Shown here: positions 3,095 to 55,285 of the stretch, piece after piece
How the letters are laid out: each line of letters starts with the position of its first letter
Numbering within the stretch: the stretch's first letter is position 1
Assembly: GCA_016213405.1 (NCBI GenBank)
Contig: JACRAM010000125.1
Span: 62,001-126,000 of the forward strand
DNA length: 64,000 nucleotides
Source of the DNA: Bacteroidota bacterium
GTDB lineage: Bacteria > Bacteroidota > Bacteroidia > Palsa-948
Reading direction: 5' to 3'
Position numbers and translations under genes: made by a program
Notes under the pieces: model-generated
Database searches by the model: none
Told to the model about the DNA's origin: nothing
The model's input: the letters and a program-made list of their open reading frames with translations, nothing else

Positions 3095-3731
3095 GGTCTT
3101 TTCTTTTTTAAAAGTTTCTTTATTACTTTTCCTATCAACTCAAACCCCGTACCCGCGAAGGTCTTTCCTTCGTGGGAAAGTAATTCGTAAGCTCTGCTTA
3201 TGATTTTTCACCCTTCCTTCCCGGCAATGTCTCTCCGCTTTGGGAACATACTGATGAATATTGCACAGTTTCCCTCACCTGCCAGCCGATAGTCACCGCC
3301 TGAACGCCTTGTGTTCATTCAGTAAAGTCGTAATCCCATTCCGTAATACCTAAACCCGGCATATGAACGTATTGAGCCGGCATCTGAAATCCGAAATCCC
3401 ATATCTGAACACCGAAATCCAGCAGCGTAAAGCCGCAATCCCGCATCGTAATACCCAAATCCCATTCTGTAAAGCCGCAATATGGCACCGTAACACCGAA
3501 ATCCTATAGTGTAAAGCCGAAATCCTATACCGTAACGCAAAGCATAGTAAAATTTTCTCCCTTTAGGGTTCGGGCATCTTGTTTTCCCTTAATAATTTTT
3601 TCTGGCACACTCTTTGCAATACCATACACCAACAGACAATAATCAATAATAAACAATCAATAGAAAACATGACATAACAACTACTCTTTTTTTAAAGTTC
3701 ATTTAACACTAACAATTAAAAAAGAAAAGTT
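3095..3731. other. Gene-free stretch of about 640 bp
   Basis: No convincing gene is seen here. The interval contains a short hairpin (cgaaggtctttccttcg near 3158), the 21-bp tandem array at 3322-3531 and an AT-rich segment leading to the gene at 3732. Open frames through the array are side effects of its 21-bp period. Confidence 0.6.
3322..3531. repeat. Ten tandem copies of a degenerate 21-bp unit
   Basis: Exactly ten 21-bp units (3322, 3343, 3364, 3385, 3406, 3427, 3448, 3469, 3490, 3511). Typical units are gtaaagc|cgaaatc|ctatacc and gtaatac|ccaaatc|ccattct. Each unit divides into three related heptamers of the type nnnAATC, so the array can be read as 30 heptanucleotides. On the minus strand it is stop-free because 21 is a multiple of 3 and would encode heptapeptide repeats (GFRxYxx). 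I treat that as a by-product, not a gene. Confidence 0.85.
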
Positions 3732-4758: not shown

Positions 4759-5280
4759 ATGATGCCCCGCCACACCTTCAAAAAAGCAGAACGCCTCACA
4801 AACAAAAAAACGTTTGACCAACTCTTCAAATCAGGCAAAAGCATAGTGGTTCCTCCCTTCAGATGGGTGTGGATAGAAATAGCAAGCCCCAAGCATCAAG
4901 TCCAAAGTCCAAAGTCCAAAGAAGCAGCCAGTATCGGCTGTTCCCTTGGAATTTGGAGCTTGGAATTTGAAACTTGGAATTTGAAACTCGGCATCTCCGT
5001 TCCCAAAAAATCATTCTCAAAAGCCGTTCAGCGCAACCGGATTAAAAGAAGAATCCGCGAAGCGTACCGAAAAAACAAGCACCTGCTTTACCCCGAGGGA
5101 CAAAAAAAAATGTCCAACGGGGTTTATGAAGTATTATACCGAAGGTATGGAAACCCACAAAAAAAGAATCTATCTATTGCGCTGATGATTATTTACACTG
5201 AAAAAACGGAGCTGCCCTACAGCGAGATAGAAAAGAAAATGCTTGTATCTTTACAAAAACTGGTTGAGTCAATAAAATAA
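4759..5280 (+). CDS. rnpA: Ribonuclease P protein component, with repeat-derived insertion
   Basis: RnpA is the protein subunit of RNase P, which matures tRNA 5' ends. Family signatures are present: HTFKKAERLTNKKTFDQLF at the start and the RNR-type motif KAVQRNRIKRRIREAYR. I chose the ATG at 4759 (MMPRHTF) over an upstream TTG at 4747, giving 173 residues, longer than usual. The excess lies between VWIEI and ISVPKKSFSKA, about residues 43-76, and is encoded by the heptanucleotide element at 4887-4987. The insertion keeps the frame and falls between conserved blocks, so the protein is probably functional. yidD follows, the usual pairing. Confidence 0.93.
   Translation: MMPRHTFKKAERLTNKKTFDQLFKSGKSIVVPPFRWVWIEIASPKHQVQSPKSKEAASIGCSLGIWSLEFETWNLKLGISVPKKSFSKAVQRNRIKRRIREAYRKNKHLLYPEGQKKMSNGVYEVLYRRYGNPQKKNLSIALMIIYTEKTELPYSEIEKKMLVSLQKLVESIK
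4887..4987. repeat. Heptanucleotide inverted-arm element inside rnpA
   Basis: Arm 1 is ccccaag catcaag tccaaag tccaaag tccaaag (4887-4921). Arm 2 is ttggaat ttggagc ttggaat ttgaaac ttggaat ttgaaac (4946-4987), roughly the reverse complement of arm 1. The 24-bp centre holds a small palindrome (cagcc agtat cggctg). The same architecture recurs at 47350-47417 and 55191-55285. Confidence 0.85.
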
Positions 5281-11193: not shown

Positions 11194-11354
11194 GGGGCAA
11201 AGTTACAATTCTCATCCTTTGGCTGTTCTCTGCGCTCTTTGTGTGTCTTTCCTCTGCGACCTTTGCGGTTAAGGATGTTAAATACATTAACCGCAAAGAA
11301 CACGAAGATACAGCCCGCAAAGTCCACCATGAACCACAATGACGAACAATTATT

Positions 11355-11362
11355 TACCTTTG
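11355..11362 (+). promoter_or_regulatory. -7 box immediately before meaB
   Basis: tacctttg matches TAnnTTTG and ends 3 nt before the ATG at 11366. A -33 TTTG is not evident. The position favours the ATG at 11366 over the upstream ATG at 11339 and implies a very short leader. Confidence 0.4.
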
Positions 11363-11365
11363 AAT

Positions 11366-12337
11366 ATGTCCGAAACGAAAGACATCCTAAAGAAATTTGA
11401 ATCAGGCGATATAAAAGCGCTTGCACGAATTATTTCCATTGTTGAGAATGAAACGGACGGCTACGAAGAAATATTATCCTCGCTGAAAATAAAAAATGTT
11501 CCTGTTGTTGGAATTACCGGACCTCCGGGTGCAGGCAAAAGCACGCTCATCAATGCAATTCTCAAAAAACTTACAGATAAAGGAAAAAGAATCGGGGTGA
11601 TTGCCATTGACCCGACTTCTCCTTTCAATTACGGCTCTTTGCTTTGCGACAGGTTAAGAATGGCTGAGCATTTCACGAATGAAAAAGTATTCATTCGCTC
11701 GCTGGCTACACGCGGTTCGCTGGGCGGACTTTCAGCAAAAACAATTGAGGTGATAGATGTCCTGAGAGCGTTCGGTAGCCCATCCCTAACCCTTCCCCAA
11801 GGGAAGGGAGTTGCACGCGCAAGTTCTCCCCCTTGGGGGGAGTTAGAGGGGGCATTTGATTATGTATTTATAGAAACCGTTGGGGTTGGACAAAGCGAAG
11901 TAGAAATTGCAGGGCTTGCCGATACCACCGTTCTGGTTCTCGTGCCCGGCTATGGAGATGAAGTGCAAACGCTGAAATCAGGCATTATGGAGATAGGGGA
12001 TATTTTTGTGATTAACAAAAGCGACCAGCCGAATGCGGAAGGGTTTGCAAAAAATGTGGAGCAGTTAGTTCACAGCAGAGAAAAAAGTAACTGGACAACT
12101 CCTGTAATAAAAGCAGTAGCAACCGAAGAAAAGGGAATTGAAGAAATTATAAATAAGATTGACGAACACGCCAGCCACAGCAACGACAAAAAATTATTTC
12201 TCGTGACAGAAAAAGCATTTAAACTAATACGGAACAAGCGAATGAAAGATGTGGACAAGAAAAAATTGCAGAAAGAGATTGAAAAGGAAATGAAGAAGAA
12301 GGATTTTAATCTATACAAATTTGTTGTGAAATATTAA
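11366..12337 (+). CDS. meaB: Methylmalonyl-CoA mutase-associated GTPase MeaB, with in-frame MITE
   Basis: 323 residues from the ATG at 11366 (an ATG at 11339 would add nine). MeaB is a G3E-type P-loop GTPase that protects and reloads the B12-dependent methylmalonyl-CoA mutase. Walker A is GITGPPGAGKSTLINA (about 49-64). Later motifs are VIAIDPTSPF, GGLSAKTIEVID and FIETVGVGQSEVEIA, with the NKSD specificity motif. Between VLRAFG and FDYVFIETV are about 26 extra residues (138-163, including SPSLTLPQGKG and SSPPWGELEG) encoded by the paired-hairpin element at 11777-11853. The frame is preserved. No mutase gene is in the window. Confidence 0.92.
   Translation: MSETKDILKKFESGDIKALARIISIVENETDGYEEILSSLKIKNVPVVGITGPPGAGKSTLINAILKKLTDKGKRIGVIAIDPTSPFNYGSLLCDRLRMAEHFTNEKVFIRSLATRGSLGGLSAKTIEVIDVLRAFGSPSLTLPQGKGVARASSPPWGELEGAFDYVFIETVGVGQSEVEIAGLADTTVLVLVPGYGDEVQTLKSGIMEIGDIFVINKSDQPNAEGFAKNVEQLVHSREKSNWTTPVIKAVATEEKGIEEIINKIDEHASHSNDKKLFLVTEKAFKLIRNKRMKDVDKKKLQKEIEKEMKKKDFNLYKFVVKY
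11777..11853. repeat. Complete paired-hairpin MITE-like element inside meaB
   Basis: Left half: agcccatccctaaccc, then hairpin ttcccc-aa-gggaa. A 12-nt spacer follows. Right half: hairpin ctccccctt-ggggggag, then ttagagggggc. The halves are inverted relative to each other, as at 34838, 37348, 39038 and 49382. With about one flanking base the length is a multiple of three, keeping meaB in frame. Confidence 0.85.
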
Positions 12338-12940: not shown

Positions 12941-15460
12941 TTACTCGTGAAAATAAACGCGCTTCACTCTTCGTGAAATTCCGGTGAACACTTCGTAGGG
13001 GATTGTGTCCATATCTTTTGCGATGAGCGAGATGGGATTTTGCTCACCGAAAACAATTACTTCATCTCCCTCGGAGCATTGAATGGCGGAAATATCGAGC
13101 ATGCACATGTCCATGCAAACATTTCCGGTAATGGGCGCGGGCTTGCCTGTCCGAATGGATCCCTTCGGGACGATAATCATTTTTCCTTTTCCGTTGCTGA
13201 GGCGCCTGCTGAGCCCGTCTGCGTAGCCGATGGGAACGGTGGCGATGCGCATTTCTTTTTTCGCTATGAATTTCCGGCTGTAACCCACCGATTCTCCTGC
13301 GGGAATATTTTTTATCTGCGAAATGGTTGTCTTAAGCGTGGAAACATTTTTCAGTTGCGCCTGCTCGGTTTCGTTGGCACCAATTCCGTATAAACCGATT
13401 CCGAGCCGAACCATTTCAAATTGCGCGCCCGGAAAGCGTACTATGCCTGCAGAATTTAATATGTGACGAAGAATGGGGTAATCAAACCGCGAACGAATCA
13501 CTTCGCTCATCTCTCCGAATTTTTTTATTTGCTGACGCGTGAATTCATCGTGTGCGGATTCATCGCTTCCTGCGAGATGAGAAAATACCGAGCGCACTTC
13601 CAGAAATTTGCTGTTGCCGATTCTCACTGCGAGTTCGTTCACTTCTTTTTCTTCGAAGCCGAGGCGGTGCATTCCTGTGTCTAATTTCAAATGTATCGGG
13701 TACGGAGAATCTTTTCTTCCTGAACGGCTTACTGCGTCTTCAAAAAGTTTCAGCACGCGAAAAGAAAAAATTTCAGGCTCCAAATCATTTTTAATCATTG
13801 CGTCATAACTCGCTTCTTCGGGATTCATCACCATAATCGGCACGGTGATTCCTGCTTTGTGAAGTTCAATTCCTTCATCGGCATATGCCACCGCGAGATA
13901 ATCCACATGATGGTGCTGAAGAATATTCGCAATCTCAAAACCTCCGCTTCCATAGGAGAATGCCTTCACCATCGCCATCATCTGCGTTCCGGGCGCGAGT
14001 TTGGAGCGATAATAATTCAGGTTGTGAATGAGTGCGTTGAGATTTATTTCAAGAACGGTTTCGTGCGCTTTCTGCTGAAGAACCTGCGATATCTTTTCGA
14101 AACTAAATGCTCGTGCGCCTTTTAGCAGAATAGTTTCGTTGGAAAATAAATTTCCGCTGTACTGTGAAAGAAATTCATCCGTTGTTTTGAAAAATATTTT
14201 CTCTGTTTCAAATTGTTTTTGCTGTCGGGAAATTGCTTCACCGATTCCGAAAATCTTATTGATACCTTTTTCTTTTACAAGTTGCGCTACTTCTTTGTAA
14301 AGTTCATCTTCATTTTTTCCGCTTTGAAAAATATCCGATAGAATTAAAGTGCGCTTGGGATATTGCTTTTGCTGATTCAGAAAATCCAGTGCAATAGCAA
14401 GCGAACCTAAATCAGAATTGTAGCTGTCGTTGATGACAGAACAATTATTAATTCCTTCTTTCAGTTCCAGTCGCATTGCAACGGGACTCAGGCGAGTCAT
14501 TCGTTCGGCAATAATTTTATTCTGATAGCCAAGAAGCAGCATCACCGCCCAGCAATGAATGGCATTCTCAATGCTGGCTTCATCCGTAAAAGGAATTCTG
14601 ATCCGGATGAACTCATTGTTATAAACACCCTGAAGTTCGGTTTCACTTCCATCTTTGGTAACTTTTCCTACCTGAAGATTCGCTTTTGATTTTCTGGACC
14701 ATGTAAAGAGATTTATTTTTTTGATGACAGGGTTGGAAATAATTTCTTCGTTGAGCTCGAGATTGTCACGGTTATAAATCAAAGTATTTGAGTGCACAAA
14801 CAGTTTCAGCTTCTCGCGAATTTTTTGTTTCGGATTCAGAAAATTTTCATCGTGCGCCTGCCCGATATTTGTTAAGAGCCCGACAGTTGGAGAGATTATC
14901 GGCTCCAGGTTTTCCATTTCATCAGGCTTGGAAATTCCCGCTTCAAAGAGGGCGATGTTGTGTTCCTCGCTCGTAAGCCAGACCGAAAGCGGAACTCCTA
15001 CCTGGGAATTATAACTTTTCGGGCTTCGCACCACGCTTTTATCTTCCTGCAAAAGATGATAAAGCCATTCCTTGACAATCGTTTTTCCGTTGCTTCCGGT
15101 AATTCCGATAACTGGAATGTTAAATTTCTTTCGATGATTTGCCGACAAATGCTGAAGCGCGGATAAAGTATCTTTTACAAGAATGAAATTCGCTTCCGGA
15201 TAGACCTCATCCCCTCGCTCTTCTCCTACAGGAGAAGGGAGCGAAGCCACAACAAAGTTCCGAACTCGTTTCTTGTAGGCGTCACCAATAAATTTATGTC
15301 CGTCATTGCGCTCGCTTTTTAGCGCGAAGAAGAGGGAAGTTTCAGGAGAGGAAATGCTCCGGCTGTCAATCAGCAAATGACGAATCTGTGCATCAGGATT
15401 TCCATTTCCGCTGAACGTTCCTCCAAGAATTCTTGCTATATCTTTTGCGAAGTAATACAA
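12941..15460 (-). CDS. murF-alr: Bifunctional MurF ligase / alanine racemase
   Basis: The N-terminal half adds D-Ala-D-Ala to UDP-MurNAc-tripeptide. The C-terminal half makes D-Ala from L-Ala. This fusion is known in Bacteroidota. MurF: GITGSNGKTIVKEWL at about 119-133. Alr: PLP Lys at about 499 (MVKAFSYGSGG), and the catalytic Tyr region MVRLGIGLYGIG. I place the start at TTG 15460 (M-YYFAKDIARILGG), giving 839 residues. An ATG at 15535 would add 25 residues translated from IS/REP sequence. Residues about 73-86 (PSPVGEERGDEVYP) are an insertion encoded by a repeat at 15202-15244. Both active sites look intact. Confidence 0.93.
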   Translation of the reverse strand: MYYFAKDIARILGGTFSGNGNPDAQIRHLLIDSRSISSPETSLFFALKSERNDGHKFIGDAYKKRVRNFVVASLPSPVGEERGDEVYPEANFILVKDTLSALQHLSANHRKKFNIPVIGITGSNGKTIVKEWLYHLLQEDKSVVRSPKSYNSQVGVPLSVWLTSEEHNIALFEAGISKPDEMENLEPIISPTVGLLTNIGQAHDENFLNPKQKIREKLKLFVHSNTLIYNRDNLELNEEIISNPVIKKINLFTWSRKSKANLQVGKVTKDGSETELQGVYNNEFIRIRIPFTDEASIENAIHCWAVMLLLGYQNKIIAERMTRLSPVAMRLELKEGINNCSVINDSYNSDLGSLAIALDFLNQQKQYPKRTLILSDIFQSGKNEDELYKEVAQLVKEKGINKIFGIGEAISRQQKQFETEKIFFKTTDEFLSQYSGNLFSNETILLKGARAFSFEKISQVLQQKAHETVLEINLNALIHNLNYYRSKLAPGTQMMAMVKAFSYGSGGFEIANILQHHHVDYLAVAYADEGIELHKAGITVPIMVMNPEEASYDAMIKNDLEPEIFSFRVLKLFEDAVSRSGRKDSPYPIHLKLDTGMHRLGFEEKEVNELAVRIGNSKFLEVRSVFSHLAGSDESAHDEFTRQQIKKFGEMSEVIRSRFDYPILRHILNSAGIVRFPGAQFEMVRLGIGLYGIGANETEQAQLKNVSTLKTTISQIKNIPAGESVGYSRKFIAKKEMRIATVPIGYADGLSRRLSNGKGKMIIVPKGSIRTGKPAPITGNVCMDMCMLDISAIQCSEGDEVIVFGEQNPISLIAKDMDTIPYEVFTGISRRVKRVYFHE
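15202..15244. repeat. Half paired-hairpin element inside murF-alr
   Basis: The arm acctcatcccctcgctc is followed by the hairpin ttctcc-taca-ggagaa and then gggagcga. The arrangement matches half elements elsewhere in the window. It falls in a poorly conserved part of the MurF N-terminal domain and keeps the frame. Confidence 0.65.
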
Positions 15461-15478
15461 GTTTTTATTTTTTCGTTT

Positions 15479-16085
15479 CGTCCCATAGGGACGAACTGTT
15501 TGTAGAAAAACGAATGTATCCAATTGGAGTCCCATCGGGACGACCTGTTGTTATTCTATCCATTCAAATAAATATTTATCATCATATTTCACATCATTGT
15601 TGTTCAGCATTTCCAAATATTCTTCCTTAAATGATTTCGCTCCATGATGTTCTTTCTGATTGCGAATATACTTCACAACAGAATCAATCTGAGAATGTGA
15701 ATGAGAAAAAGCTCCATAACCTTCCTGCCAGTTGAATTTGCCTTTAATCCATCTTTTATCATTGATAAATTTTGAAGACACTGCTTTTATTTCACGAACC
15801 AAATCCGAAATGCTCATCACGGGTTTAAATCCTACAAAAATATGAATGTGGTCGGGCATGCAATAAATGGCAATTAATTTTTGTTCACGGTTCTGAACTA
15901 TTCCTGTAATATATTTCTGCAATTCCTCTCGATGAGATTCTGAAATCAGGTTTTGTCTTCCCTGAACTGTAAAAACAATGTGAATATAAATTTGCGTGTA
16001 TGTGTTCGGCATTTTACAGGTCGTCCATACGGGACTACATTTTCTTTTGAATTCCTTTTTTATAAATAGTTCGTTCCTACGGAGC
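15479..16085 (-). mobile_element. IS200/IS605-like (RAYT-type) element with REP-like hairpin ends
   Basis: Left end: hairpins cgtccc-ata-gggacg (15479-15493) and gtccc-atc-gggac (15529-15541), separated by a stretch with gaactgtttgtag. Right end: gtccatacgggac (16023-16035) and gttcctacggagc (16073-16085), separated by a stretch with ataaatagttc. Inside is one Y1 transposase gene. Single-strand hairpins instead of true terminal inverted repeats are the hallmark of this family. It splits tdk from murF-alr, and its right hairpin supplies the tdk stop. Confidence 0.8.
15551..16012 (-). CDS. tnpA: Y1 (HUH) transposase, REP-associated / IS200-like
   Basis: 153 residues from ATG 16012 (MPNTYTQIYIHIVFTVQGR). 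The HUH metal site is CMPDHIHIFVG. The catalytic Tyr is probably the one in VVKYIRNQKEHH, followed by the expected Gln. The C-terminal FKEEYLEMLNNN matches IS200-like enzymes found with REP hairpins. It nicks and joins single-stranded hairpin ends. The length is normal and no frameshift is seen, so it may be active. An in-frame extension to 16144 would run through tdk and is not used. Confidence 0.9.
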   Translation of the reverse strand: MPNTYTQIYIHIVFTVQGRQNLISESHREELQKYITGIVQNREQKLIAIYCMPDHIHIFVGFKPVMSISDLVREIKAVSSKFINDKRWIKGKFNWQEGYGAFSHSHSQIDSVVKYIRNQKEHHGAKSFKEEYLEMLNNNDVKYDDKYLFEWIE

Positions 16086-16646
16086 TGATTTATTAAAACA
16101 TTCCCGGCACAACGGCTCGTAATTATTTTTTTCTCCGAGCACAATCAACGAATCATCTTCTGAAATGCGATGAGAAAAATTCGCGAGCGCACCGCAACGC
16201 ATGCATACTGCGTGAACTTTCGTCACGTATTCCGCACTCGCCATCAGCGCGGGCATCGGTCCGAAAGGTTTTCCCAGATAATCTTTATCAAGCCCTGCTG
16301 TGATAACACGAATTCCTTTATTCGCCAGCGTAACGCAGACATCCACAACACCTAAATCAAAAAACTGAACTTCGTCAATCGCAATCACATCTGCATCTTT
16401 CATTCGTTTCAAAATTTCTGAAGAAGAAGCAACCGGCACGGAATGAATTTCATTGGCATCGTGCGACACCACTTTTTCTTTTGAGTATCGATTATCGATA
16501 ATAGGTTTGTAGATCTCTACTTTCTGTTTCGCAATCTGCGCGCGCCTGATTCTGCGGATGAGTTCTTCCGTCTTGCCGGAAAACATACTTCCGCTGATGA
16601 CCTCAATCCATCCTTTGCGCGGGTTGGTATGATTTTCAGGAAACAT
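16077..16646 (-). CDS. tdk: Thymidine kinase
   Basis: 189 residues. Phosphorylates thymidine for salvage dTMP. P-loop [14 protein letters not shown] at about 18-31. The DE motif lies in [10 protein letters not shown]. The lasso and zinc site use CMRCG and CRECF. The type II (zinc) thymidine kinase is complete. The last residues and stop (KSAP then TAG) come from the REP hairpin gctccgtagg, so the insertion has set the C-terminus. The REP element then separates it from murF-alr. Confidence 0.95.
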
Positions 16647-17344: not shown

Positions 17345-18589
17345 ATGAAAAATCGTATTCTGCCATTTGTCTTCAGTATTTTAATTTCTCACTTTACTTT
17401 TTCTCAATCAGAAGTTCTCAAGTACGCTCATCAAATAGTTGATACTCTTGCTTCTCCCACCATGCATGGTCGCGGTTATGTGAACAAAGGAGACAGCATT
17501 GCAGCCGATTACATCAAAAAAGAATTTGAAAAGTTTGGATTGAAACCGATTGGGAAAGAGTTTGAGCAGAGGTTTTCTTTTCCGATGTATACATTTCCAG
17601 GAAATATGGAAGTTAAACTTGATAAGCAAATATTAATTCCAGGAAAAGATTTTATCGTAAAGTCTATAGGCAAAAGCCCTTACTTAACTAGAAAGATAAT
17701 TTATTTAAATAAGGGTGATAGTTATTGGGATAAAGTAGGTAAGAAATCACAAAATAAATTAGAGAAAAAATTTGCTTTTATTGTTGATTCCGGTGCAGTA
17801 CATGAAGTTGATTCTCGTGTTATTTTGGATATAAAAACAAAATTAACTTGGGGTTTTGAATATATGAAAGAAAATAGCGAAAGAGATTGGACAATCTTTG
17901 AAATAAAAAAAGATGTAATAAAAAACACTCCTAGAAAAATTTCAATTAAAATAGATTATAAGTATTACCCCAACTACCAATCCCAAAACATTCTCGGCTA
18001 TATCAAAGGCATCCAATATCCCGATTCATTTATTGTCTTCTCTGCGCATTATGACCATCTCGGACAAATGGGAAAAGATGTGTACTTCCCCGGAGCAAAT
18101 GACAACGCCAGCGGTTGTGCCATGCTGCTCAATCTTGCAAAATATTATTCACAGCATCCGCCAAAATATTCTGTTGCGTTCATGGCATTTGGAGGAGAGG
18201 AAGTCGGTTTGCTCGGCTCAAAATATTATGTTGAGCACCCGCTGTTTCCGCTCAAGCAGATAAAATTCCTCGTGAACATGGATATCATGGGCACGGGCGA
18301 TGAAGGCATTAAAGTGGTGAACGCCACTGAGCATAAAAAAGAATTTGATGAACTCGTAAAAATAAATTCGGAGAAAAATCTATTACCTGTTGTTTCTCCT
18401 CGTGGCAAAGCTGCGAATAGCGACCATTATTTTTTCGAGGAAGCAGGCGTGAAGACTTTTTTTATCTACACGCTCGGAGGCATCAAAGCGTATCACGATA
18501 TTTATGACAGACCGGAAACTCTTCCTTTGACTAAGTTTGAAGAAGTATATAATTTACTTTTGCAGTTCACAGATTATTTGCAGAAATGA
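17345..18589 (+). CDS. Secreted M28-family zinc aminopeptidase
   Basis: 414 residues with a signal peptide (about 1-20, ending HFTFSQ). The catalytic part (about 215-414) has the M28 metal ligands in order: FSAHYDHLG, GANDNASGCAML, AFGGEEVGLLGS, NMDIMGTGD and a final His in AYHDIYD. It probably removes amino acids from peptides in the periplasm or outside. The region at 17630-17950 is more AT-rich than the flanks and encodes a less conserved domain. Confidence 0.9.
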   Translation: MKNRILPFVFSILISHFTFSQSEVLKYAHQIVDTLASPTMHGRGYVNKGDSIAADYIKKEFEKFGLKPIGKEFEQRFSFPMYTFPGNMEVKLDKQILIPGKDFIVKSIGKSPYLTRKIIYLNKGDSYWDKVGKKSQNKLEKKFAFIVDSGAVHEVDSRVILDIKTKLTWGFEYMKENSERDWTIFEIKKDVIKNTPRKISIKIDYKYYPNYQSQNILGYIKGIQYPDSFIVFSAHYDHLGQMGKDVYFPGANDNASGCAMLLNLAKYYSQHPPKYSVAFMAFGGEEVGLLGSKYYVEHPLFPLKQIKFLVNMDIMGTGDEGIKVVNATEHKKEFDELVKINSEKNLLPVVSPRGKAANSDHYFFEEAGVKTFFIYTLGGIKAYHDIYDRPETLPLTKFEEVYNLLLQFTDYLQK

Positions 18590-18592
18590 ATT

Positions 18593-19061
18593 TCCCCCTT
18601 ATAAAGGGGGCGCACACGAAGTGGCGGGGGATTCTGGACTCAAATGAAAGCAAAAAAGAAAATAGGTTACATTGAATATGATAAAGACCACAAATTACTT
18701 TCCAGAGAACTTAGAAACAACAGCACTCTCGGAGAAATTCTTCTCTGGAATCAACTTAAAGCAGGAAAAATGCTTGGCCACAAATTCAACCGACAAAAAC
18801 CTTTGGGAGATTATATCGTTGACTTCTACTGTAAAAAATTAAATTTGGTGATTGAAGTGGACGGATATAGTCATCAGTTTAAAACAAAAAAAGATTTGAA
18901 ACGAGATAAAGACTTAAATGAAATGGGATTGAGTGTTTTGAGATTCATTGAACAGCAATGCAAAAAAGATATGTTGAATGTGGTGAGAGCAATTGAAACT
19001 TGGATTGAGGAAAATCAAAATACAAATCCCCCTGCTTCGCTTCCCCCTTTATAAGGGGGAG
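18593..19061. mobile_element. Candidate DUF559 cassette bounded by inverted hairpin elements
   Basis: Left boundary: palindrome cccccttataaaggggg (18594-18610) plus arm cgcacacgaagtggcggggg. Right boundary: atccccctgcttcgct followed by ccccctttataaggggg (19043-19059), which is the exact reverse complement of the left palindrome. The two copies thus form an inverted pair around a single gene. The left arm, read in reverse, shares 26 bp with a gene-less pair at 45552-45642. Confidence 0.65.
18644..19054 (+). CDS. DUF559 protein, Vsr-like PD-(D/E)XK endonuclease fold
   Basis: 136 residues. Motifs of the DUF559/Vsr-like family: LRNNSTLGEILLWNQLKAG, GHKFNRQKPLGDYIVDFYC and LVIEVDGYSHQ with the acidic residues of a PD-(D/E)XK core, then GLSVLRFIEQQ. 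It is likely a DNA nuclease or repair-like enzyme. The biological role is unknown. The last 11 residues (NTNPPASLPPL) and the stop are encoded by the flanking hairpin element, so gene and repeat are physically joined. Confidence 0.85.
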   Translation: MKAKKKIGYIEYDKDHKLLSRELRNNSTLGEILLWNQLKAGKMLGHKFNRQKPLGDYIVDFYCKKLNLVIEVDGYSHQFKTKKDLKRDKDLNEMGLSVLRFIEQQCKKDMLNVVRAIETWIEENQNTNPPASLPPL

Positions 19062-19069
19062 AAATCCAA

Positions 19070-19738
19070 ATGAGCAAACTCTTCATAGTCCCAACCCCCA
19101 TCGGCAACCTCGAAGACATCACCATTCGTGCGCTCCGCATTTTGAAAGAAGTGAAAGTTATTTTGGCAGAAGACACACGCAACACGGGAAATTTACTGAA
19201 ACATTTTTCGATTGAAAATAAATTACAGTCGCACCATTTGCACAACGAACATAAAATGGTTAAGCAGATTGTGGAGCAAATTAAAAACGGAGAAACCGTT
19301 GCTCTTGTGAGTGATGCTGGTACACCATCCATCTCTGACCCCGGCTTTTTGCTCGTGCGCGAGTGCATCAAAAATGGAATTGAAGTGGACTGTCTGCCGG
19401 GCGCGACAGCTTTTGTACCCGCGCTGGTAAACAGCGGATTGCCAAGCGACTCATTTGTGTTCAATGGCTTTCTCCCTCAGAAAAAAGGACGTAAGACAAA
19501 ACTTGAATCACTGAAAGAAGAAGAGCGCACGATGATATTTTATGAATCCCCTTTTAGATTAGTAAAAGCATTAGAAGAATTCGCGGAGGTTTTTGGTGGC
19601 GAACGCAGAGCCAGCGTTTCGCGCGAACTCAGCAAAATGTTTGAAGAAACCAAACGCGGAACGCTTGCTGAACTGAAAGAATATTTTTCCGGCAAAACCG
19701 TGAAGGGAGAGATTGTGATTGTGGTGGAAGGGAAATAA
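19070..19738 (+). CDS. rsmI: 16S rRNA (cytidine1402-2'-O)-methyltransferase RsmI
   Basis: 222 residues. Methylates the ribose of C1402 in 16S rRNA using SAM. Tetrapyrrole-methylase fold: LFIVPTPIGNLEDITIRAL, AEDTRNTGNLLKHF, ALVSDAGTPSISDPG, DCLPGATAFVPALVNSGLP and FYESPFRLVKALEE. The length is slightly below that of enzymes carrying a C-terminal HTH extension, as is usual in Bacteroidota. It starts 8 bp after the DUF559 cassette boundary. Confidence 0.96.
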   Translation: MSKLFIVPTPIGNLEDITIRALRILKEVKVILAEDTRNTGNLLKHFSIENKLQSHHLHNEHKMVKQIVEQIKNGETVALVSDAGTPSISDPGFLLVRECIKNGIEVDCLPGATAFVPALVNSGLPSDSFVFNGFLPQKKGRKTKLESLKEEERTMIFYESPFRLVKALEEFAEVFGGERRASVSRELSKMFEETKRGTLAELKEYFSGKTVKGEIVIVVEGK

Positions 19739-21121: not shown

Positions 21122-22408
21122 ATGAACGTTTTCTTATTAGGATCAGGCGGACGCGAACACGCCCTTGCATGGAAAATGGCACAAAGTGAAAAACTGGGCT
21201 CTCTCTTTATTGCACCCGGCAACGCAGGCACTTCTGATTACGGAGAAAATGTAAACATTTCCCCTGCTGATTTTCCTTCCATCAAAAAATTTGTTCTTGA
21301 GAATAAAATAAATATGGTAGTTGTCGGTCCCGAAGAACCGCTGGTGAAAGGCATTCACGATTTTTTTCTTGCGGATGATGAATTGAAAAACATTCCTGTC
21401 ATTGGTCCTCAAAAAGATGGCGCGCAACTTGAAGGAAGCAAAGATTTCTCCAAACAGTTCATGATAAAGTACGGAATTCCCACTGCTAAATATCAAACCT
21501 TCACCAAAGAAACTATTTCGGAAGCTTTTTCTTTTCTTGAAACACTTTCCCCACCTTACGTTCTCAAAGCAGACGGACTTGCAGCCGGAAAAGGCGTGGT
21601 TATTCCAAGCACTATTGAAGAAGCAAAAAAAGAACTCGAAGAAATGTTAGGAGGGAGATTTGGTGCTTCAAGTGCCAAAGTCGTGATTGAAGAATTTCTG
21701 AAAGGCATTGAGCTTTCAGTTTTTGTCCTTTCAGATGGAAAGAGTTATAAAATTCTTCCCGAAGCAAAAGATTACAAACGTATAGGAGAAGGCGATACAG
21801 GTTTGAACACAGGTGGCATGGGCGCAGTTTCTCCTGTTCCCTTTGCCGATGAGGTCTTTATGAAAAAAGTGGAAGAGCAAATCATCATTCCAACTGTTGA
21901 AGGTCTGAAAAAAGAAAATATAGTTTACAAGGGCTTCATTTTCATCGGGCTAATTAAAGTTGGTGATGAACCTTTCGTAATCGAATACAACTGTCGCATG
22001 GGCGATCCTGAAACAGAAGTGGTTCTTCCAAGAATTAAATCTGACATCTTAAATTTGTTTGAAGCAGTCGCTAATCAAACTTTAGACAAAATGAAAATTG
22101 AATTTGACGAACGCACTGCCGTAACAGTAATGCTTGTCTCAGGCGGTTATCCTGGAGATTATGAAAAAGGAAAAGTAATTATCGGATTAGAATCAGTAAA
22201 AGATTCCATTCCCTTTCACGCAGGCACATCCGAACTCCCAACTCCCAACTCCCAACCCCAAATTGTAACAAACGGGGGAAGAGTAATTGCAATTACTTCT
22301 TACGGAAACACAATGGAAGAAGCATTACAAAAAAGTTTTGCAAATGCCGAAGCAATAAACTATGAAGGAAAGTACTATCGCAAGGATATTGGAAAGGATT
22401 TGATTTAA
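21122..22408 (+). CDS. purD: Phosphoribosylamine-glycine ligase
   Basis: 428 residues. Second step after PRPP amidation in purine synthesis: PRA + Gly + ATP to GAR. N-terminal [20 protein letters not shown]-grasp: [29 protein letters not shown] and [16 protein letters not shown]. Near the C-terminus, [21 protein letters not shown] contains about 9-10 extra residues encoded by heptamers (22234-22261). The frame is intact. purQ lies further downstream, separated by a DUF6427-type gene. Confidence 0.96.
22234..22261. repeat. Heptamer repeat inside purD
   Basis: actccca actccca actccca accccaa: four heptamers, 28 bp, encoding the extra residues between HAGT and IVTNGG. Confidence 0.8.
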
Positions 22409-22442
22409 AGTCCTTCCCTTTGGGAAGGATTTAGGATGGGCT
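22409..22442. repeat. Half paired-hairpin element after purD
   Basis: agtccttccctttgggaagg followed by atttaggatgggct. It begins at the base after the purD stop and may serve as its terminator. Confidence 0.65.
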
Positions 22443-22450
22443 TGAGTTCT

Positions 22451-34837: not shown

Positions 34838-34953
34838 AGCCCATCCTAAATCCTTCCCCAAGGGAAGGACTTTTTATTTTTATGGTTATTGTTGTTCATT
34901 TGTTTTTGCCTTCTTCTTGTTCTCTCCCCTTGGGGGAGAGTTAGAGAGGGGCT
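34838..34953. repeat. Paired-hairpin element between nuoK and nuoL
   Basis: Left half: agcccatcctaaatccttcc and ccaagggaagga. A roughly 60-bp AT-rich spacer. Right half: tctctccccttgggggagag and ttagagaggggct. The halves are inverted. It spans the nuoK-nuoL gap, 2 bp from the nuoK stop and 2 bp from the nuoL ATG, so it replaces any native intergenic sequence. Confidence 0.85.
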
Positions 34954-34955
34954 TT

Positions 34956-35267
34956 TTACCATTTCAAAGTATCAATATCGTCTTCGTCAATTGATTTAAA
35001 TTTTCTGTACAGGTTAATAATTATTGCAATTGCCACAGCTGCTTCAGCAGCAGCAATGGTGATAATAAAAATCGTAAAGAAGAGTCCGTCTAATTTATCA
35101 GCAAACAAATATTTATTGAACACTACAAAATTTATATTCACGGCATTGAGCATAAGTTCCACCGCCATAAGCATAGTGATCATATTTCTACGCGTAAGAA
35201 ATCCATACGCTCCAATGAAAAAGAGTGCGAAACTTACGAGCAATATGAATTTCATTTCATTCATCAA
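34956..35267 (-). CDS. nuoK: NADH-quinone oxidoreductase subunit K
   Basis: 103 residues, three spans. GFLTRRNMITMLMAVELMLN holds the conserved Glu of TM2. FTIFIITIAAAEAAVAIAII is TM3 with the second Glu. Start possibly at one of three Met codons within the first five residues. The start overlaps nuoJ by 4 bp. Confidence 0.95.
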   Translation of the reverse strand: MMNEMKFILLVSFALFFIGAYGFLTRRNMITMLMAVELMLNAVNINFVVFNKYLFADKLDGLFFTIFIITIAAAEAAVAIAIIINLYRKFKSIDEDDIDTLKW

Positions 35268-37347: not shown

Positions 37348-37457
37348 AGCCCCTCTCTAACTCTCCCCCAAGGGGAGAGAATTTATTTTATTTGTATTTG
37401 TTTTCATTTTGTTTCTTGCTCATCTCCCTTCCCTTGGGGAAGGGTTGGGGATGGGCT
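37348..37457. repeat. Paired-hairpin element between nuoD and nuoH
   Basis: agcccctctctaactctccc and cccaaggggagag form one half. An AT-rich spacer is followed by ctcccttcccttggggaagg and gttggggatgggct. It fills the nuoD-nuoH gap to within 2 bp on each side, at the place where nuoE, nuoF and nuoG lie in 14-gene operons. Confidence 0.85.
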
Positions 37458-37459
37458 TT

Positions 37460-38590
37460 TTATCTATCTATATCCGGAATTACCAAATCCAATGTTGCCA
37501 TTATTGCAACCAAGTCGCCAATCTTCCCACCAACCGCCATATTCTTGAGCGCAGAGAGGTTTGAAAAATTCGGTGAACGAAATTTTATTCTGTACGGTTT
37601 CATGCTTCCATCGCTGACGATGTACACACCCAATTCTCCGCGCGCAGTTTCCACACGCGAATAAAATTCTCCCTTCGGAAGTTTGAGCACCGCTTTTGTC
37701 TTTGCCTGAAAATCTCCATCGGGAATATTATTTATTACCTGCTCAATAATTTTTACTGACTCTCTCATTTCTCTCATACGAACTTTATATCTTGAATAGC
37801 AATCTCCACCTGTTTCAAGAATTTCTTCAAACTGAACTCCTTCGTATCCATCGTATGGAAACCATTTGCGAATATCAGAACTCACGCCTGAACCGCGGGC
37901 AACAGGACCAGTACATCCGTATGAAATTGCATCTTCAGGCGAAAGATAGCCAACTCCTTTTGTTCTGTTTTCAAAAATTACATTTCCCGTGAGCAACTGA
38001 TCATATTCCGGAAGATGTTTTTTGAAATTAGCAAGGAACGTGAGAACGCGTTTTTGAAAGTTCGGATGAATATCGTACATCACACCACCCGGCACACTGT
38101 AATTCATCGTGAGACGCGCTCCGCAGGTCTCTTCAAAAATATCCATGATCTCTTCGCGGTCGCGAAAACTGATGAAGAAAGGAGTAGTTGCGCCAAGATC
38201 CAATCCAAGCGCTCCCCACCAAAGCGTATGCGAAGCAATACGGGTAAGTTCAGACATCAAAAGACGAATCGCTTTTGCACGCGCAGGAATTTCGAGAACC
38301 ATTCCTTTTTCCACCGCCATCGCGCATGCCTGATTGTTCATGTGCGCAGATAGATAATCCATCCGGCTCGTGAGGTAAATAAAATTCCGGTAGGTGCTCG
38401 CCTCGCACATTTTCTCAATCGAGCGGTGAATGTAACCCAAATGCGGCACAACATCCAGCACCGTTTCTCCCTGCAGCTTCACTTTCAAATGCAACACGCC
38501 ATGCGTTGATGGATGCTGCGGACCAATATTTACAATGAAATCCTCTTCTTTGGATTCCAGCAGTTCGTGTATGTCTTCGTTCTGCTTCAA
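37460..38590 (-). CDS. nuoD: NADH-quinone oxidoreductase subunit D
   Basis: 376 residues. Quinone-site 49-kDa-type subunit related to NiFe hydrogenase large subunits. NIGPQHPSTHGVLHLKVKLQ, PHLGYIHRSIEKMCEASTYR, PGGVMYDIHPNF, and the C-terminal KIGDLVAIMATLDLVIPDID. Overlaps nuoC by 4 bp. Separate C and D genes, not fused. Confidence 0.97.
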   Translation of the reverse strand: MKQNEDIHELLESKEEDFIVNIGPQHPSTHGVLHLKVKLQGETVLDVVPHLGYIHRSIEKMCEASTYRNFIYLTSRMDYLSAHMNNQACAMAVEKGMVLEIPARAKAIRLLMSELTRIASHTLWWGALGLDLGATTPFFISFRDREEIMDIFEETCGARLTMNYSVPGGVMYDIHPNFQKRVLTFLANFKKHLPEYDQLLTGNVIFENRTKGVGYLSPEDAISYGCTGPVARGSGVSSDIRKWFPYDGYEGVQFEEILETGGDCYSRYKVRMREMRESVKIIEQVINNIPDGDFQAKTKAVLKLPKGEFYSRVETARGELGVYIVSDGSMKPYRIKFRSPNFSNLSALKNMAVGGKIGDLVAIMATLDLVIPDIDR

Positions 38591-39037: not shown

Positions 39038-39159
39038 AGCTCCTCCTAAATCCTCCCAATCGGGGAGGACTTGTGATGATTATTATTTTTGTTGCAATTC
39101 ATTTTTGTCTTTTTGCCTTTACCTTCTTCCTCCCTAACGGGGAGGGTTGGGGTGGGGCT
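39038..39159. repeat. Paired-hairpin element between nuoB and nuoC
   Basis: agctcctcctaaatcctccc and aatcggggagga, an AT-rich spacer, then tcctccctaacggggagggt and tggggtggggct. Inverted halves. It directly abuts the nuoB stop codon. Confidence 0.85.
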
Positions 39160-39696
39160 TCAGATATTTATTTTTTCTCTCGGTCCGCCACCGCGAATTT
39201 TTTCCTGCAAAGTAATCAGCGCGTGTAACAGCGCTTCCGGTCTCGGAGGACAACCCGCTATGTAAACATCCACAGGAATCACATGATCAACTCCGCGCAC
39301 CACCGAATAAGAATTATAGAAGAACGGTCCGCCAGAAATAGTACAAGCGCCCATGGCAATTACATATTTCGGATCCGCCATCTGATCATACAATCTTTTG
39401 AGAACGGGAGCCATTTTGTAAACGATTGTTCCAGCGCAAATAATTAAATCCGCCTGACGAGGAGTTGCGCGTGCCACTTCAAAACCAAAACGTGACCAGT
39501 CATGTCTTGCAGAAGCAGCAGACATCATTTCAATCGCACAGCAGCTTGTTCCGAACACAAGCGGCCAAAGCGAATTGGAGCGAGACCAGTTTGCAACGCC
39601 TTCTATTGTTGACATCACAATGTTTCCTCCACCTGGCAGGTTGTGAACCTGTCCCGGGAAATTTTTTATTGCTTCTTGTGTTTTCTCTTCTGTCAT
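39160..39696 (-). CDS. nuoB: NADH-quinone oxidoreductase subunit B
   Basis: 178 residues. Carries cluster N2. [20 protein letters not shown] provides the tandem Cys pair. [15 protein letters not shown] and [20 protein letters not shown] provide the other two ligands. Second gene of the nuo operon. Confidence 0.97.
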
Positions 39697-45542: not shown

Positions 45543-45551
45543 TGGCTGTTT

Positions 45552-45642
45552 ATCCCCCTTTGGAGGGGGCAGGGGGAGGATAGAGTATTCAATCACTAAC
45601 TCCTCCCCCGCCACTTCGTGTGCGCCCCCTCCAGAGGGGGAC
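45552..45642. repeat. Gene-less inverted pair of the DUF559-linked hairpin element
   Basis: Left half: hairpin ccccctttggaggggg plus cagggggagga. A 20-bp spacer. Right half: tcctcccccgccacttcgtg, tgcg and hairpin ccccctccagaggggg. The right arm shares 26 bp with the reverse complement of the element to the left of the DUF559 gene (18605-18630). It looks like the same inverted pair without a gene between. Confidence 0.75.
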
Positions 45643-45673: not shown

Positions 45674-47266
45674 ATGAAAAAAATCTTTTTCATATTCCTT
45701 GCCACGCTGAGCGTAGCGAAGCATTCTCAAGCGCAAATTACTTTTCAGAAAGCATATGGAGGAACTGCTTATGATGTTGGATATTCCGCTCAAGAAACTA
45801 ATGATAGTGGATTTATTATTACTGGAGGGATACGTAGTTTTGGAGCAGGCAATGAAGATGTCTATTTGATAAAGATCTCCTCCGATGGTACATTGCAATG
45901 GACAAAAACTTTTGGTGGAACAAATAATGACGATGGGTATTCCATTCAACAAACCAATGATGAAGGATTTATTATTGCTGGAACTACGACTAGTTTCGGA
46001 GCAGGAAATAATGATTTTTATCTTTTAAAGGTCGCTTCTGACGGAACTCCACAATGGACAAAAACTTTTGGCGGAGCAGGGGATGATTTTTGCTCCTCCG
46101 TTCAGAAAACCAATGATGGAGGTTTTATTCTTATTGGAACAACAAAAAGTTTTGGATTAATAAATGAAGATATTTATATTATAAAGACTTCTTCTAATGG
46201 TTCATTAGAATGGGCGAAAACTTTTGGCGGAACATATCCTGACTATGGATATTCTGTTTCTCAAACTAATGATGGAGGATTTATTGCAAGCGGAGAAACA
46301 GTAAGTTATGGAATCGGATATGGTGATGCCTATCTTATAAAGATGACTTCAGACGGCAATTTGCAATGGTCGAAAACTTTTGGAGAATCTTCTACTAATG
46401 ATCTTGGAAATTCCATTCAGCAAACCAACGATGGAGGATTTATTATTGGCGGTACTACTTCTCCGCCTTCTTCAGGAAATGGTGATGTCTATCTGATAAA
46501 AACCGATTCAGATGGAACTTTACAATGGTCAAAAACATTTGGAGGAACCAAACCTGATTATGGAAAATCAATTCTGCAAGCCAATGATGGAGGATTTTTT
46601 ATTGGTGGCTATACTTCTAGTTTTGGGGGAGGTCCTCATAATTTTTATCTTGTAAAAACAATTTCTGATGGCACTTTATCTTGGTCAAAGACTTTTGGAG
46701 GTTCAGTTGATGATGAAGGCTTTTCCTTTCAGAAAACGAATGATGGGGGATTGGTTATTACAGGTTGGACTAATAGTTTTGGAGTTGGGAGTTATGATCT
46801 TTACTTAATCAAAACAGATTCAAATGGAAACAGTGGATGTAATGAAACTAATCCTAATACCATCACAACTACTCCAACAATTTTAACTACCAATCCTGCC
46901 ACACAAGTTTCATCAGGTGGAATAATTGGAAATCTTGCTGCGCAAACAGGAAGCGGAGGAATTGAAACAACACTTTGCTTTACAAATGGAGTAAATGATT
47001 TCCAAAACTCAAAATCTGAAATAAATATTTTTCCAAATCCCTTCAGCACAGAAGCCACTATTGAAGTCTCAAGTTTCAAGTCCCAAGTTCCAAGTTCCAA
47101 GTTAGAGTTTAAACTGTATGATGTATTCGGGAGAGAAGTCAGACGTTTACTGTTTACCGATAACCGTTTACTGATTACGCGAGGAAACCTCGCGAGCGGG
47201 ATTTATTTTTATAAGTTTTCCGACTCAACAGAAGTTATCGGCACGGGAAAAATTATTATTGAATAA
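45674..47266 (+). CDS. T9SS-exported repeat protein (beta-propeller-like)
   Basis: 530 residues from ATG 45674. Signal peptide FIFLATLSVAKHSQAQ, whose DNA contains cacgctgagcgtagcgaagc, a sequence type known as a dispersed repeat. There are seven repeats of about 58 residues beginning AYGG/TFGG (for example TNDGGFIIGGTTS, DVYLIKTDSDGTLQWSKTFG). The linker (420-460) is Thr-rich. The T9SS domain starts INIFPNPFSTEATIEV and ends TGKIIIE. The sorting domain has heptamer-encoded inserts (SFKSQVPSSK and RLLFTDNRLLITR). It is probably a cell-surface protein. Confidence 0.85.
   Translation: MKKIFFIFLATLSVAKHSQAQITFQKAYGGTAYDVGYSAQETNDSGFIITGGIRSFGAGNEDVYLIKISSDGTLQWTKTFGGTNNDDGYSIQQTNDEGFIIAGTTTSFGAGNNDFYLLKVASDGTPQWTKTFGGAGDDFCSSVQKTNDGGFILIGTTKSFGLINEDIYIIKTSSNGSLEWAKTFGGTYPDYGYSVSQTNDGGFIASGETVSYGIGYGDAYLIKMTSDGNLQWSKTFGESSTNDLGNSIQQTNDGGFIIGGTTSPPSSGNGDVYLIKTDSDGTLQWSKTFGGTKPDYGKSILQANDGGFFIGGYTSSFGGGPHNFYLVKTISDGTLSWSKTFGGSVDDEGFSFQKTNDGGLVITGWTNSFGVGSYDLYLIKTDSNGNSGCNETNPNTITTTPTILTTNPATQVSSGGIIGNLAAQTGSGGIETTLCFTNGVNDFQNSKSEINIFPNPFSTEATIEVSSFKSQVPSSKLEFKLYDVFGREVRRLLFTDNRLLITRGNLASGIYFYKFSDSTEVIGTGKIIIE
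47065..47106. repeat. Heptamer repeat in the sorting domain
   Basis: agtctca agtttca agtccca agttcca agttcca agttaga: six heptamers. A second run, gtttact gtttacc gataacc gtttact gattacg (47145-47179), lies in the same domain. Both are in frame. Confidence 0.8.
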
Positions 47267-49381: not shown

Positions 49382-49485
49382 AGCTCATCCCCAACCCTTC
49401 CCTAAGGGAAGGGAGAAAAATGAATACAACGGATACAACAAACTCGGTTTACTCTCTCCCCTTGGGGGAGAGGCGGAGAGGGGCT
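49382..49485. repeat. Paired-hairpin element supplying the lipB start
   Basis: Left half: agctcatccccaaccc, then ttccctaagggaaggga. Spacer 49415-49451. Right half: ctctctccccttgggggaga, then ggcggagaggggct. The lipB ATG at 49420 lies in the spacer and the right half is translated as lipB residues about 10-22. Confidence 0.85.
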
Positions 49486-50181
49486 CAGGTTCTCTTCCGT
49501 GATTTAGGTTTGATTGACTACAAAGAATGCTGGGATTATCAGGAAAAACTTCTTACTGAAACCATTTCTATAAAATCACAGAACAGAATTCTTTCTCCCG
49601 ACTCCCAGCTCCTGACTCCCAACTATTTTCTTTTCTGCGAACATCCCCACGTATACACACTCGGAAAAAGCGGAGATGAAAAAAATTTATTGCTGAATGA
49701 AACTCAGCTGAAAAATAAAAACGCGACTTACTACAAAATAAACCGCGGAGGAGATATTACCTATCACGGTCCCGGACAAATTGTAGGTTATCCCATTTTA
49801 GATCTGGATAATTTTTTTACAGACATTCACAAATACCTCCGCTATTTAGAAGAAACAATCATTCTCACACTGAAGGATTACGGAATTGAATCAGGAAGGA
49901 TTGAAGGACTCACAGGTGTTTGGCTTGACTGGAAAAATCCAGCGAAGGCAAGAAAAATCTGTGCGCTGGGTGTACGCACTTCAAGATGGGTAACCATGCA
50001 CGGATTTGCTTTCAACGTGAATTCTGATTTAAGTTATTTCAATAACATTATCCCCTGTGGAATACAAGACAAAGCAGTTACTTCCATGCAAAAAGAACTC
50101 GGCAGAGAAATAAATATGAAAGAAGTGAAGGAAAAAGTAAAAAAATATTTCGCTCAGGTATTTGAATGTGAAATTGTGTAA
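49420..50181 (+). CDS. lipB: Octanoyl-[acyl-carrier-protein]:protein N-octanoyltransferase LipB
   Basis: 253 residues. Transfers octanoate from ACP to lipoyl domains. Family core from VLFRDLGLIDYKECWDYQEK, CEHPHVYTLGKSGDEKNLL, NRGGDITYHGPGQIVGYPIL, the nucleophile Cys in IIPCGIQDKAVTSMQKELGR with its Lys. The first 22 residues are MITE-encoded and replace the usual short N-terminus. Residues about 61-67 (SPDSQLL) come from heptamers at 49601-49621. lipA lies at 54253. Confidence 0.95.
   Translation: MNTTDTTNSVYSLPLGERRRGAQVLFRDLGLIDYKECWDYQEKLLTETISIKSQNRILSPDSQLLTPNYFLFCEHPHVYTLGKSGDEKNLLLNETQLKNKNATYYKINRGGDITYHGPGQIVGYPILDLDNFFTDIHKYLRYLEETIILTLKDYGIESGRIEGLTGVWLDWKNPAKARKICALGVRTSRWVTMHGFAFNVNSDLSYFNNIIPCGIQDKAVTSMQKELGREINMKEVKEKVKKYFAQVFECEIV
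49601..49621. repeat. Three heptamers inside lipB
   Basis: actccca gctcctg actccca: exactly 21 bp, hence seven residues without frame change. Confidence 0.7.
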
Positions 50182-55113: not shown

Positions 55114-55190
55114 CGCTCAGCACCACAGTTCATGTTAGCAAATGCGCCCCACGTTTTGTTTGTCCGTGCGAAGTTGTCGACTCCAAAACC

Positions 55191-55285
55191 CCAAATTCCA
55201 AGTCCCAAGTCCAAAGTCCCAAGAAATACAACATCCGCTGTTTCTTGGTACTTGCTGCTTGAGACTTTGGTCTTGTTACTTGGTT
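55191..55285. repeat. Intergenic heptamer inverted-arm element
   Basis: Arm 1: ccaaatt ccaagtc ccaagtc caaagtc ccaagaa (55191-55225). 18-bp centre. Arm 2: cttggta cttgctg cttgaga ctttggt cttgtta cttggtt (55244-55285). Closely related to the rnpA copy in unit sequence and layout. The 283-bp gap between lipA and the next gene contains nothing else I can identify. Confidence 0.85.

Follow-up and report, generated by a model that had tools for sequence, protein, structure and literature searches.

A probable homing-like, palindrome-bounded element built around a DUF559 nuclease gene in a Bacteroidota genome

The window, by which we mean the whole stretch of 64,000 nucleotides that was analysed, covers G000:C125:62001-126000 of a Bacteroidota genome (G000; 3.65 Mb in 127 contigs). 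It carries one gene for a DUF559 nuclease between the palindrome CCCCCTTATAAAGGGGG (18594-18610) and an exact inverse copy of it (19043-19059), as an earlier note on this DNA had described. Each of the two arms (18593-18610 and 19043-19060) is 18 nt long, and they are 100% complementary, with 432 nt between them. When up to three mismatches were allowed, matches in the window were confined to the two ends of the element (six overlapping matches), with 0.06 expected. The right palindromic end was also confirmed as the source of the last codons of the nuclease gene and of its stop codon TAA (19052-19054). The features of the element are as follows.

About 18590 to 19065, forward strand: whole element, consisting of the left palindromic end, the DUF559 gene and the right palindromic end (from the empty versus full orthologous junction)
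18590 to 18632, forward strand: left end ATTTCCCCCTTATAAAGGGGGCGCACACGAAGTGGCGGGGGATT, consisting of hairpin, linker and inner GGGGG arm (from repeat comparison)
18594 to 18610, no strand: left palindrome, 17 bp (from the inverted-repeat match)
18644 to 19054, forward strand: DUF559 nuclease gene, 136 aa, PD-(D/E)XK / EDxHD-type (from the PF04480 match)
19024 to 19065, reverse strand: right end, the inverted left end, carrying the final codons and stop of the nuclease (from repeat comparison)
19043 to 19059, no strand: right palindrome, 17 bp, exact inverse of the left (from the inverted-repeat match)

Rfam gave no match at 18000-19600, so that neither an intron nor a regulatory RNA family was recognised there, and a regulatory RNA was rejected as the identity of the element.

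The 136-aa open reading frame was assigned to DUF559 (PF04480) with E=3e-31 and 107.9 bits against a curated cut-off of 20.6. E31, D60, E71, D73 and H77, the putative catalytic residues, occupy invariant columns of the nuclease alignment and are all intact in the window protein. In a Foldseek search with the AF2 model of this protein (pLDDT 84.6), the nearest structures were those of a Neisseria DUF559 protein (3hrl) and of the homing endonuclease I-Bth0305I (catalytic domain, 3r3p), the latter being the second-best PDB entry by fold (E=4e-4). Both entries were also returned by the profile search, with the I-Bth0305I profile at E=1.5e-6, and an annotation paper equates DUF559 with the EDxHD homing nucleases (PMC9403480). 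The dN/dS of the nuclease between paired copies was 0.03-0.17, with several dS values near saturation; judged by these ratios, the nuclease is under strong purifying selection.

The neighbours of the element, an M28 peptidase gene and rsmI, are adjacent in congeners also. In G001 the junction is empty, with TAA ATTAAA alone between the two genes (6 bp after the stop), in G002 and G004 it holds ~100 bp of unrelated sequence, and in G003 an orthologous DUF559 element is present (L077). Since the orthologous junction is empty in G001 and full in G003, the element spans about 18590-19065. Empty sites in relatives, which the earlier note had proposed to look for, were found both at this junction in G001 and at a site in recG described below.

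Six gene-less inverted palindrome pairs were found in the 64-kb window, together with solo palindromes or ends.

11777 to 11860, no strand: gene-less palindrome pair inside the open frame 11333-12334, the gene apparently intact (from palindrome pairing)
15220 to 15237, no strand: solo palindrome inside the apparently intact MurF/alanine racemase-like gene 12941-15535, reverse strand (from ORF and palindrome scan)
22411 to 22443, no strand: solo end TCCTTCCCTTTGGGAAGGATTTAGGATGGGCTT, of the sequence type of the right end of in-frame elements (from repeat comparison)
34838 to 34958, no strand: gene-less paired-palindrome (MITE-like) derivative (from palindrome pairing)
37348 to 37462, no strand: gene-less paired-palindrome derivative (from palindrome pairing)
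39038 to 39164, no strand: gene-less paired-palindrome derivative (from palindrome pairing)
About 45550 to 45641, no strand: gene-less pair with the 25-bp inner segment of the left end, inverted at 45605-45629 (from repeat comparison)
49382 to 49490, no strand: gene-less paired-palindrome derivative (from palindrome pairing)

The copy at 45.6 kb had been described as a 26-bp recurrence of the left arm without the gene. A gene-less copy does lie there, but the palindrome is not repeated exactly over 26 bp: the two places have an identical segment of 25 bp in common (GGGGGCGCACACGAAGTGGCGGGGG; 18606-18630), and the hairpin loop differs between the left end and this copy. Other repeats were also present in the window. 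A Y1 (IS200-like/RAYT-type) transposase gene on the reverse strand (15551-16144) has its own, different hairpin, TTCGTCCCATAGGGACGAA, at 15477-15495, and a dispersed heptad-like repeat, AAGTCCAAAGTCC, occurs at 4884-4923, 22233-22272, 47064-47103 and 55186-55225. Imperfect repeat arrays of 156 nt (45690-46772) and 162-168 nt (55981-57005) resemble repeated protein domains, and a tandem repeat with a 21-nt period runs for eight copies at 3324-3535.

Every DUF559 gene of the genome was flanked by palindromes (7/7), which are of C/G type and vary in sequence by copy. The sample of relatives comprised 30 genomes, 21 of them with DUF559, and 71 copies with sufficient flank. Under a stringent, pyrimidine-arm definition, 80% of these genes had a palindrome in one flank or both, and 46% (33/71) had one in each flank, a layout shown by 0/138 of the other genes at those loci (Fisher, 6e-19). 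When the threshold was set at the 95th percentile of hairpins in random local windows, 61% of the 71 copies exceeded it on both sides. The inverted match between the two flanks of one gene had a median of 16.5, compared with 8.5 for swapped flanks and 8 for random windows. Palindrome abundance was expressed as the count of CCCC-N6..20-GGGG over the count of the reversed pattern, solo palindromes thus being counted by pattern and not mapped genome-wide. The median C/G palindrome excess was 2.6 in the 21 DUF559-positive and 1.0 in the 9 DUF559-negative genomes (p=9e-5; per genus p=4e-4), and the number of DUF559 genes correlated with the excess (rank correlation 0.76), with exceptions: G007 has 2 DUF559 genes without palindrome excess, and some DUF559-poor genomes are palindrome-rich. 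DUF559 genes without hairpins, and hairpins as frequent in genomes without the gene, had been named beforehand as findings that would refute a nuclease-driven repeat; the flanking in all seven genomic copies and in 80% of the 71 relatives' copies, and the 2.6-fold against 1.0-fold excess, were found instead.

GIY-YIG genes, used as the control family, were mostly unflanked. This control has a leak, since a few of the genes are flanked by other palindromes and one lies in frame in hsdR. The latter sits between CCTGTCTGC-type palindromes (L164 1440-1930; G005:C29:13199-13405), another GIY-YIG match was found in a 1187-aa frame (G011:C65:5754-5954), and two further genes (L160, L162) have matching palindromes on both sides. 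The palindrome-flanked GIY-YIG genes possibly represent an analogous element with another nuclease.

Similarity of the palindrome arms followed similarity of the nucleases (Mantel r=0.41-0.43; 0/500 permutations), with 0.41 being the value once same-genome and close pairs were removed. This covariation fits a specificity of the enzyme for its ends, while shared descent of gene and ends would give an equal signal. It also bears on the origin of the palindromes, as it argues against their being REP-like sequences moved in trans by a Y1 (RAYT/IS200-like) transposase, with DUF559 as a passenger between two of them. Such an origin has a precedent in the REP/RAYT systems, for which the spreading of palindromes is known (PMC2817692, PMC3116915), and Y1_Tnp genes were present in 12/13 genomes, the window itself holding one. 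However, 27 Y1 loci carry other hairpins of their own, e.g. CCACGACCTGAAGGTCGTGG, and in G001 a Y1_Tnp match was absent, yet DUF559 elements and palindrome excess were present. A RAYT/Y1 origin was rejected on these two observations, and we regard it as unlikely.

Related copies were found in frame within host genes. Among the 74 DUF559 copies of the analysed genome and its relatives, 30 (about 40%) lay in a long open frame, with hosts identified by NCBIfam as RecG, RecJ, MutS, LeuRS, TsaB, TsaC, TsaD, MetH, acetyl-CoA synthetase, IcmF, HsdR and SiaA-like phosphatases. One clade of 23 copies has every member inside a host frame, and the in-frame label changed 7 times on the nuclease tree versus 23.5 times when shuffled, on a tree of 108 columns with many inner forks unresolved. 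A phylum-wide draw of 118 genomes gave a lower in-frame share, with ~1/5 of the full-length matches in frames >250 aa. Two further hosts are a MnmE-like protein in Runella zeae (L215) and a UvrA-like protein in Emticicia (L219), both of which are cultured bacteria. No full-length match of a Y1_Tnp gene was found in a long frame. At RecG site 1 (LWKK|PHVLVMTATP), G001, G003, G007 and G008 are empty (12 nt), G029 is full (492 nt), and G000 (48 nt) and G005 (60 nt) have short solo right ends, all of these lengths being divisible by three. Of the genomes compared, G000 alone has an occupied RecG site 2. The LeuRS site is a variable turn before VFTTRPDT, which measures 42 nt when empty and 453-567 nt when full, always in frame, and occurs in both states across several lineages. 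In G000 this turn (L260) is filled in frame by an AAAGTTC repeat like AAGTCCAAAGTCC, where other genomes have DUF559 elements. The insert-bearing LeuRS is the sole LeuRS above cut-off in G011, G019, G020 and G029. As the RecG and LeuRS inserts are in frame and the carrier LeuRS is single, the host proteins have to function with the insert in place or in spite of it. When the editing region of LeuRS was modelled together with the insert, AF2 gave a pLDDT of 45, too low for use.

A nuclease serving its host, in Vsr-like mismatch repair or in defence, with the palindromes as terminators or regulatory hairpins, is made very unlikely by these positions, as insertion in frame inside unrelated essential genes (LeuRS, RecG, RecJ) largely refutes it, and inverted palindromes at both ends, empty sites and gene-less derivatives would not be expected of such a gene. 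It is favoured by the strong purifying selection, by a weak PADLOC match of the nuclease to a methyl-directed restriction enzyme (E=3.5e-4) and by the Caulobacter DUF559 protein VsrA, the partner of a solitary cytosine methyltransferase in DNA damage (PMC12907096).

The junctions of the in-frame copies are palindrome codons that are read through (LSPNPSPQGEG / VLPFGEDLGGA). No intein splice blocks were recognised at them, and no intein family was among the NCBIfam matches of the fused proteins. A reading of the in-frame copies as nuclease-containing inteins, or as inserts taken out of the mRNA or skipped by ribosome bypassing so that the host protein is restored, is slightly less probable still than a host-serving gene. 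The junctions, the stop-free inserts in multiples of three expected of translation into a loop, and the placement of the LeuRS insert in a variable turn all speak against it; in its favour, the hosts are conserved, partly essential single-copy genes, and homing nucleases of the I-Bth0305I-type fold occur in introns and inteins. All three alternatives are weaker than a nuclease-driven element because each fits fewer of the facts. Neither a fixed target sequence nor a target-site duplication was recognised at the M28/rsmI, RecG and LeuRS sites, where the empty sites are too diverged to exclude a duplication of 1-3 bp.

Transfer and decay differed among the copies. In the RecJ copies of G005 and G001, the nuclease had a synonymous difference of 0.28, compared with 0.64-0.70 in the host flanks, and the alignment contained a 92%-identical core within an 80%-identical gene. 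By this comparison, the RecJ nuclease moved between species at the same site more recently than the host gene diverged. Same-site phosphatase copies (G004/G029, G006/G013) had nucleases 73-78% identical in hosts 29-52% identical. Clear recent lateral transfer was confined to the one RecJ pair, several other same-site pairs looking vertical. Across all loci examined, a palindrome accompanied 94/106 copies with an intact active-site motif and 1/12 copies that had lost it. However, 11/12 of the motif-less copies form a single decayed LeuRS lineage of Flavobacteriaceae, and the association of dead nucleases with lost ends counts once because these fossils are one lineage. The LeuRS inserts of Tenacibaculum, Polaribacter and relatives (L240, L242, L244, L246-L253) have lost the E-x-D-G-x2-H motif and lack palindromes; judged from these losses, the Flavobacteriaceae LeuRS insert is a fixed fossil domain.

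The repeat unit consists of a pyrimidine-arm hairpin and an unpaired TTAGGGG-like arm, which points outward in the in-frame clade and inward in the clade of the window. The layout of the element recurs in Cyanobacteria, Chloroflexota, Alphaproteobacteria, Patescibacteria and others, with Microcoleus, Tychonema, Pseudanabaena, Deinococcus, Sinorhizobium, Novosphingobium, Sphingobium, Pirellulales, Chloroflexi and Peribacteria among the taxa. This presence in many phyla and the in-frame copies in conserved host genes were missed in the earlier note. As only 3/50,697 phage records carry DUF559 copies, phages are not the main vehicle.

The element shares its fold, related sequence and location of the gene in conserved hosts with the EDxHD / Vsr-like homing endonucleases (I-Bth0305I, PDB 3r3p), as well as nuclease transfer beyond host divergence, here in one pair. 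In contrast to these, it has no intron or intein, is bounded by inverted palindromes, and occurs at many unrelated sites with abundant gene-less and solo derivatives. Like REP/RAYT systems (REPtrons, REPINs), it combines small, often inversely paired palindromes, a large number of copies that lack the gene, a single nuclease gene between palindromes, and covariation of enzyme and palindrome; its outward and inward arms resemble the two kinds of inverted REP pairs. Unlike there, the gene is of PD-(D/E)XK-type and not a Y1 HUH transposase, many copies lie in host frames, and the palindromes are of the pyrimidine/purine-arm type with a TTAGGGG arm; the GTAG-tagged hairpin that marks REP/RAYT was absent from the ends compared. 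Rickettsia palindromic elements and CGTC-tagged REPs likewise place palindromes in frame in coding genes, with repair genes among the hosts and head-to-head pairs, and are described as lacking a dedicated transposase, their mobilising enzyme being open (PMC3733652). The autonomous copies here differ in carrying their own nuclease gene, and the flanks of DUF559 at the examined loci contained no CGTC tag beside an 8-9 bp stem that starts with AT. MITEs and their parent insertion sequences are similar in their terminal inverted repeats and internally deleted derivatives, whereas the autonomous copy here has no DDE, serine, tyrosine or Y1 transposase and no recognised target-site duplication. We place the element in neither the homing endonuclease nor the REP/RAYT family: its presumed action is like homing, and its anatomy is like that of REPs.

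As far as sequence comparison reaches, mobility over evolutionary time, linkage of the gene with its ends, selection on the nuclease and gene-less derivatives are established. The DUF559 gene between inverted units is, we are fairly confident, a short, autonomous, homing-like palindromic element driven by its nuclease. The earlier note's reading as a nuclease-driven mobile repeat thus gains support from flanking, abundance, covariation and empty sites, and we infer that the nuclease is probably the mover of the repeats. Its target for cutting or nicking may be an empty site, a sequence that resembles an end, or an extruded hairpin; the break would then be mended by the host with the element as template, as happens in homing. 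PD-(D/E)XK nucleases by themselves do not join strands, so that insertion at a new site depends on host repair or on a second enzyme. Gene-less pairs of ends would be either mobilised in trans or remnants of internal deletion. One large clade reads open through both ends and persists in loops of conserved genes that tolerate an insert of 130-150 aa; the window copy is a member of a sister clade that sits between genes. Upon death of the nuclease, the ends would erode until the fossil domain alone remains.

Palindromic repeats, palindromes in frame and the fold of the nuclease have each been described before, but no paper searched reported their union in one element. No paper linking DUF559 with repeats was found in the open journal literature searched. 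Taken jointly, and with slightly less than even confidence, DUF559 may represent a phylum-spanning class of mobile elements without transposase, intron or intein, in which one PD-(D/E)XK-type nuclease works on ends that are palindromes, one branch is specialised for life in frame inside essential proteins, and gene-less ends make up a large share of those dispersed C/G palindromes of bacterial genomes that so far lack a known enzyme.

Small palindromes that lack a known mobilising enzyme occur in many bacterial genomes, some of them in frame within genes. One nuclease family is here tied to such palindromes by position, covariation, genome-wide abundance and polymorphic insertion, which offers a possible function for DUF559, a widespread domain of unknown function. 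It would also explain odd inserts of 130-150 aa in LeuRS, RecG, RecJ, MutS and TsaD, which annotators may take for real domains.
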